NCBI RefSeq assembly: GCF_900163755.1
Contig: NZ_FUKI01000002.1
Coordinates: forward strand, 1 to 64,000
Direction of reading: 5' to 3'
Length of the DNA: 64,000 bases
Origin: Crenothrix polyspora
GTDB taxonomy: Bacteria; Pseudomonadota; Gammaproteobacteria; Methylococcales; Methylomonadaceae
The notes under the pieces are model-generated. The model ran no database searches, was not told the DNA's origin, and saw only the letters and a program-made list of their open reading frames with translations. Made by a program: the position numbers and the translations under genes. Of this stretch, positions 15,445 through 16,298 are shown in pieces (position 1 is the first letter of the stretch; every line of letters starts with the position of its first letter).

Positions 15445-15521
15445 CGGGGTGTAGCGCAGTTTGGTAGCGCGCCTGCTTTGGGAGCAGGATGTCGGGGGTT
15501 CGAATCCCTCCACCCCGACCA
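15445..15521 (+). tRNA. tRNA-Pro (anticodon TGG)
   Basis: 77-nt cloverleaf with acceptor stem CGGGGTG/CACCCCG, anticodon stem CCTGC/GCAGG around TTTGGGA, T-arm GGTTCGAAT and an encoded CCA end. First of three clustered tRNA genes. Confidence 0.97.
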
Positions 15522-15527
15522 CATTTT

Positions 15528-15604
15528 GCGCTTGTAGCTCAACCGGATAGAGCACCAGCCTTCTAAGCTGGGGGTCGCAGGTTCGAGTCCTGCCAAGCGC
15601 GCCA
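15528..15604 (+). tRNA. tRNA-Arg (anticodon TCT)
   Basis: 77-nt cloverleaf with acceptor stem GCGCTTG/CAAGCGC, anticodon stem CCAGC/GCTGG around CTTCTAA, and an encoded CCA end. It begins 6 bp after tRNA-Pro, so the two share a transcript. Confidence 0.97.
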
Positions 15605-15625
15605 TTTCTTGAAATAGCGTTTTAT

Positions 15626-15702
15626 GGTGAGCGTAGCTCAGTTGGTAGAGTCCAGGATTGTGATTCCTGTTGTCGCGGGTTCGAGCCCCGTCGTTCACCC
15701 CA
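15626..15702 (+). tRNA. tRNA-His (anticodon GTG)
   Basis: Cloverleaf with the extra 5' G characteristic of tRNA-His (G at 15626 opposite the discriminator C), acceptor GTGAGCG/CGTTCAC, anticodon stem CAGGA/TCCTG around TTGTGAT, and an encoded CCA end. Confidence 0.97.
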
Positions 15703-15796: not shown

Positions 15797-16298
15797 TTAA
15801 AAAAACGCTTTTAGCACCAGAGACAGAATACCAGCCAACATTAAGCCCATCATCCATTTTAGAACGGCTAGATCTGTGTAAATTGGAGACAATTTGTTAT
15901 CGAATTTATTATCCAAGTATTCTTTGGTGACTAACGTGTCCTGCGCTTCCGCAATCACACGAACCGACATTCCGCACCCCTAAATAAAAATTCAGCATTT
16001 AAGCAAAATATTGATATTTAATGAATTTTAGTATTTTAGACTTTCGAGTTAAAACAAGAAAAATTCATCTCTCGTTTGTTTTTTGTTAAATATAAGCTGA
16101 TATAAATGACTTTGAAAATACGCCAAAAATTCGACAAGCTTATAACATACTGAAATTATTAAATTAAATTTAATCATAAAATTATGAATAGGGGTGCGGA
16201 ATGTCGGCACGAATAACGGCTTCAGCCTGTTCTTGCTGAAATCCGGCGGCTTTTAGTTTATCAACAAGTTGCAGCGTATCAAAAGTTACAGTAGCCAT
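15797..16298 (-). pseudogene. DUF1640 coiled-coil protein interrupted by a MITE
   Basis: The first 30 codons (ATG at 16296-16298; MATVTFDTLQLVDKLKAAGF...) and the last 53 codons (VIAEAQDTLVTKEYLDNKF..., ending in a C-terminal membrane helix LMLAGILSLVLKAFF and stop at 15797-15799) are separated by a 244-bp insertion. Removing the insertion and one copy of the 6-bp duplication restores one continuous 83-residue frame. The restored protein resembles short DUF1640 (CCDC90-like) membrane-anchored coiled-coil proteins of unknown function. As it stands the 5' part reads into the element and stops after 38 residues. Confidence 0.85.
15964..16207. mobile_element. 244-bp MITE (family R3) with 18-bp terminal inverted repeats
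   Basis: The ends are perfect inverted repeats, CCGACATTCCGCACCCCT and its complement. They are bounded on both sides by CACGAA (15958-15963 and 16208-16213), a 6-bp target duplication. The interior is AT-rich and non-coding, so it is non-autonomous. It interrupts a DUF1640 gene. No second copy was seen in this window. Confidence 0.9.

Follow-up and report, generated by a model that had tools for sequence, protein, structure and literature searches.

The inserted element and the gene that it interrupts

What interrupted a small minus-strand gene beside a tRNA cluster in Crenothrix polyspora, and which transposase moved it there? In the window, by which we mean the whole stretch of 64,000 nucleotides analysed, a 244-bp insert occupies positions 15964–16207 and is flanked on each side by CACGAA on the plus strand (left copy 15958–15963, right copy 16208–16213), as an earlier sequence-only reading of this DNA had claimed. 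That reading also described perfect terminal inverted repeats of 18 bp; the repeats are indeed perfect but measure 19 bp, at 15964–15982 on the plus strand and 16189–16207 on the minus strand. Perfect 18-bp inverted repeats at a spacing of 100–600 bp were absent from all 20 Markov-resampled windows; in the real window there are two such 18-mer matches, as one 19-bp repeat read at two offsets would yield, and one of these carries the 6-bp duplication at 15964–16207. The insert, to which no strand is assigned, is one of 19 copies in the genome. They are short (244–264 bp) and lack a transposase gene, and all six reading frames of the window copy contain stops. Together with terminal inverted repeats, a target duplication, repeated occurrence in the genome and an autonomous partner that has matching ends (judged from IS ends in the same genome and a full IS in a genome of the same genus), these are the features of a MITE. 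The first 17 bp of the left repeat are identical to all 11 IS ends found at contig ends of the same genome, and the 22 bp at 16186–16207 agree without mismatch with the right end of the complete IS in the same-genus genome (G002).

When the element and one CACGAA are taken out, an 83-codon frame reads through on the minus strand, again as claimed; uncorrected, this frame meets a stop after 38 codons, about 25 bases inside the element. The insertion truncates a small gene whose 5′ part lies at 16208–16298 and whose 3′ part, with the stop codon, lies at 15797–15963 (both minus strand; protein match at 15800–15967, E 9e-31), next to a tRNA-Pro, tRNA-Arg and tRNA-His cluster at 15445–15702 on the plus strand. 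The gene had been labelled DUF1640, of which the likeness stands but not the formal membership: its best Pfam match, PF07798 (CCDC90-like), scores 32.6 bits where the cut-off is 33.5, and its orthologue, at 32.7 bits, also falls under this value. The gene thus resembles the DUF1640/CCDC90 family and is formally no member of it.

The restored 83-aa frame has some match in 21 of the 41 genomes searched. The best orthologue, on contig C97 of G002, is 89% identical over all 83 codons without a stop, and that of a second same-genus genome (G001, contig C343) is 76% identical over 79 codons, being four codons shorter, also without a stop and followed by a tandem second copy of the gene. Both adjoin the same tRNA-Pro/Arg/His cluster as in the window. 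The DNA alignment with G002 is gapless at the insertion site, where G002 has a single, slightly diverged copy of the target, and that with G001 is gapless at the junction, with 12 bases missing further on. The 244 bp are therefore absent from the same place in two genomes of the genus, the comparison that the sequence-only reading had called for. Since paralogues of the interrupted gene are present in its own genome (for example at C67:13746-14015, 61%), its loss is probably tolerated.

Nineteen copies and their empty sites

The genome that holds the window (G000) is a draft assembly of 3.92 Mb in 180 contigs. Its 19 MITE copies comprise ten of 244 bp, seven of 254 bp, one of 253 bp and one of 264 bp. 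Exact 6-bp duplications flank 17 of them; the copy at L021 has 5 of 6 bases, and that at L010 an exact repeat of 49 bp, considered below. Divergence was scored against a consensus for the 244-bp and for the 253/254-bp group (the single 264-bp copy was left out), and amounts to 1–3 positions in the ten copies of the former and 0–3 positions in the eight of the latter; amplification therefore looks recent. With element orientation normalised and L010 left out (n=18), the 6-bp targets show a tendency towards Y-T-N-N-A-R (Y 14/18, T 11/18, A 13/18, R 16/18).

Eight of the 19 copies lie inside a frame that is restored by taking out the element and 6 bp; these are the frame of the window gene and seven others of at least 149 codons (L009, L012, L017, L020, L023, L024, L025). 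The site of a ninth copy, L010, is gapless to two relatives after removal of 49 bp. The junctions at L014, L018 and L019 are crossed by no frame of at least 50 codons. Two of the frames were scanned, and both have Pfam matches above cut-off, a PIN domain at L024 and an NTase_sub_bind domain at L009, and the MITEs there (2003-2255 and 401-644, respectively) sit in genes resembling parts of toxin-antitoxin systems. Other interrupted genes presumably encode a polyphosphate kinase 2, a TonB-dependent receptor, a conjugation coupling protein and a type III modification methylase. At L011 (contig C99, 64-679) two MITE copies lie 128 bp apart, both inside one seeming IS-type transposase gene.

We searched for empty sites with 17 of the 19 sites, combined into a single query, against G000, G001, G002 and G006, scoring 40 first-look candidates per genome; the two sites on C99 were left out. 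Seven of the 17 (the window, L009, L010, L015, L017, L019 and L024) have a junction-spanning match of equal or near-equal length in a relative. The sequence around L017 and L019 has several copies in their own genome, so positional orthology is unproven for these two. L012, L016, L018 and L020 gave junction-spanning matches solely in paralogous or repeat-rich sequence, and L013, L014, L021, L022, L023 and L025 gave none among the 40 candidates scored per genome, a number that makes a missing match weak evidence.

An IS1634-family insertion sequence with the same ends

At up to 3 mismatches the terminus matches 49 sites in the genome, compared with 2 for a reversed control pattern, so that the related ends sought elsewhere in the genome are plentiful. 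The ends of the 19 MITEs account for 38 of the 49, and the remaining 11, which carry the 17-bp terminus of the MITE, are all no more than 160 bp from a contig end, the assembly having broken off inside a longer repeat. These IS ends are of two types. Seven resemble the right end of the full G002 IS (81% over 156 bp), and one of these right-type contig ends (C2:34444-34569) carries coding sequence for the C-terminal 42 aa of an IS1634 transposase, with 79% identity to the G002 protein; the other four resemble, by eye, the left end of the G002 IS. The assembly of the MITE's own genome contains no complete IS, its best transposase match being these 42 aa, and we infer that the IS copies there are intact with their interiors missing from the assembly.

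The complete element of the same genus, at G002:C400:169-1884, is 1716 bp long, has the same ends and is flanked on both sides by ATATAC. Its 542-aa transposase contains DUF4277 and DDE_Tnp_1 in Pfam and scores 328 bits to NF033559 (IS1634), for which the cut-off is 100. A second full IS, in G063, measures 1745 bp, has a CAACAT duplication and a 549-aa frame that, by reading and with no library scan, is like the G002 transposase. G014 contains another IS of this type, the third, which encodes a 544-aa IS1634 transposase (NF033559, 342 bits); two bases of one end are mismatched, and its 6-bp flanks do not match. The search for a transposase flanked by such ends thus led to an IS1634-family IS, which gives a name to the parent family that the sequence-only reading had left unrecognised, on the evidence of the ends and the NF033559 match. 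Within the MITE's own genome this holds for the ends and the 42-aa transposase fragment but not for an assembled complete copy.

The IS4-family review (PMC2266710) gives for the IS1634 family a length of 1500–2000 bp, ends of the form C-----YT, duplications of 5–6 bp and a YREK motif that mostly lacks the R. Like that description, the G002 IS (1716 bp) and the G063 IS (1745 bp) both end in CCGACATT and have duplications of 6 bp each, and the G002 protein has the E-(6)-K without the arginine: it contains no Y..R...E.{6}K and reads YTPGQQKVERGFRFLK at 417. The MITE differs from the IS of this family in having no transposase gene itself.

The IS seems to have moved in the MITE's genome as well. 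Among 28 pairings of right with left IS ends there, two (contig ends C26/C103 and C115/C66) show an exact 6-bp match and one shows a match of 5 bp, and about 0.007 six-base matches would be expected by chance. The two shared hexamers point to movement of the IS with 6-bp duplications. Joining the TGTGAT pair gives back a frame of 241 codons in which a DNA_alkylation domain (Pfam, 2.5e-28, residues 10–201) spans the junction at residue 100; the GCAGAA pair, whose junction falls at residue 200 in a frame of 203 codons, restores nothing.

Probable mobilization in trans

We read the insert as a non-autonomous IS1634-family MITE that was probably mobilized in trans by the IS1634-family transposase of the ~1.7-kb IS in the same genome, a reading that is drawn from sequence comparison and to which we give a probability of roughly 0.93. 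In the proposed sequence of events, the IS would encode an IS1634-family DDE transposase of about 540 aa (DUF4277 plus DDE_Tnp_1), which would recognise the terminal sequence CCGACATTCCGCACCCC common to IS and MITE and mobilize the MITE in trans; the MITE would be joined to staggered target cuts, the repair of which would produce the 6-bp duplications. We infer the mobilization itself as the best reading of the shared ends, the duplication size, the co-residence of the two elements and the empty sites. Against it count the absence of an assembled complete IS from this genome, the MITE interior that is unlike the IS, the GCAGAA pair, the imperfect ends and unmatched flanks of the G014 IS, and the missing exact duplications at four of six MITE-like elements elsewhere. 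The more general claim, that a non-autonomous element has transposed in this lineage, draws support from the uninterrupted orthologues and the plentiful related ends.

MITEs can be cross-mobilized, and a different transposase might have moved this one, either from a second IS1634-family IS or from an IS outside this family whose ends look alike. A second IS1634-family IS does occur in the genome, at contig ends of C12, C36, C67 and C45 (L100–L103), where the N-terminal part of its transposase is 39–41% identical over 57–71 query residues. The last 700 bp of these four contig ends, in which the DNA preceding the frame is included, contain no match to the 17-bp terminus within 6 mismatches, whereas the first IS has all 17 end bases and the 6-bp duplication in common with the MITE. 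Judged on its left end alone, which is different, the second IS is ruled out as parent, and we consider it improbable that any transposase other than that of the first IS was responsible.

Interior of the MITE and its predicted fold

The MITE interior shows nothing beyond chance-like short words in common with the two full IS outside the 17–22 terminal bases, and since these alone match, the MITE as a simple internal deletion of the IS is unsupported. The 60 bases beside the ends weakly resemble the right IS end of the same genome (equalled in 1/300 shuffles for the left arm and 0/300 for the right), as scored in a set of 12 IS-arm comparisons against plain mononucleotide shuffles. The two MITE arms also resemble each other (0/300 and 3/300 shuffles equal); we rest no conclusion on either likeness.

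A regulatory or RNA role, for instance as a hairpin or terminator, might exist besides mobility, as the predicted RNA fold of the element is far stabler than that of shuffled sequences (z -8.6, 0/200 as stable). Once the 19-bp repeats are removed, however, z falls to -1.0 and 34/200 shuffles fold as well, so that the excess comes from the terminal repeats and a functional RNA hairpin in the interior is unsupported. Moreover, the copies lie both within frames and, in 3 of 19 cases, where no 50-codon frame spans the site. We believe such a role to be unlikely. That the insert is no transposon, being instead a conserved functional part of the gene or an assembly artefact, is suggested by nothing that we found besides the 180-contig draft state of the genome, and in the face of 19 copies with differing flanks and duplications, uninterrupted orthologues and the same ends on elements in four named MAGs it has a negligible chance of being right.

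Comparison with known elements and a 49-bp direct repeat

A table in a published description (PMC3852290) lists a MITE of Methanosarcina barkeri that is linked to ISMba11, also of the IS1634 family, with a length of 247 bp, 23 copies, a 20-bp inverted repeat and a 6-bp duplication. The present element (244–264 bp, 19 copies, 19-bp repeats, 6-bp duplications, an IS1634 partner) is similar to it in these described features, and the ISMba11-linked MITE has an archaeal host. With similar IS1634-linked MITEs in print, the present element constitutes a new family of a kind already known; a title-level literature search returned no paper that names an element of this sort from these bacteria. We regard it as a well-documented but ordinary case of MITE insertion, one that offers a clean set of recent insertions with 19 copies, a partner family and empty sites in relatives, in a lineage with a probable relationship to Methylobacter and to methanotrophs.

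One copy departs from this pattern. At L010 (C17:1994-2237) the MITE, in a gene that we take to be that of polyphosphate kinase 2, has 49 identical bases on both sides, the element and its direct repeats together spanning C17:1945-2286. In G002 and G006 the 49 bp occur once, and the alignments across the site (285 and 287 bp, respectively) contain no gap. No long direct repeats were found at the other 18 copies or at the IS end pairs, up to 1500 bp or to the limit of available sequence. According to the 2008 review (PMC2266710), IS1634 of Mycoplasma mycoides and IS1549 of Mycobacterium smegmatis generate direct repeats of 8–514 bp, and no mechanistic model for such long variable repeats had then been proposed. 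The L010 copy is like these two IS in its long direct repeat; unlike them, the element is non-autonomous and the other 18 of 19 copies have ordinary 6-bp duplications (one with 5/6).

Whether the 49 bp are a genuine target duplication made in a single event is a close question on which we lean slightly towards doubt, as the repeat, seen at one copy in a draft assembly, could come from a later rearrangement or an assembly error. If it is genuine, the long variable duplications of IS1634 and IS1549 would be an occasional product of the transposition chemistry of the IS1634 family, arising through target nicks set far apart or through insertion at replication forks. They would then occur beside normal 6-bp events and need the element ends but no special IS. 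Given the 49-bp duplication alongside seventeen exact 6-bp ones, a 244-bp substrate could bring this unexplained behaviour within reach of testing.

Related elements in other genomes

We scanned a collection with one genome per species (84,980 species, from which the MITE's own genome may be absent) for pairs of exact 16-bp ends 205–235 bp apart. Four contigs were returned, all from Methylobacter or Methylococcaceae MAGs, and the interiors of their elements align with the MITEs described here, L098 better than L095–L097. It is these neighbours in the distribution that suggest a relationship of the window's organism to Methylobacter. Among six MITE-like elements of other genomes, these four and two more (L105 and L106), an exact 6-bp duplication is present at L096 and L105 and absent at L095, L097, L098 and L106, L097 lying six bases from its contig end. 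The IS end occurs in 5 of 61 genomes of the same genus, family and order, with the MITE's own genome included. In a Methylobacter MAG (G064:C99, 898-1020; L109) we also observed a 123-bp element with near-identical ends, for which no target duplication was found and which is possibly a shorter type of MITE.
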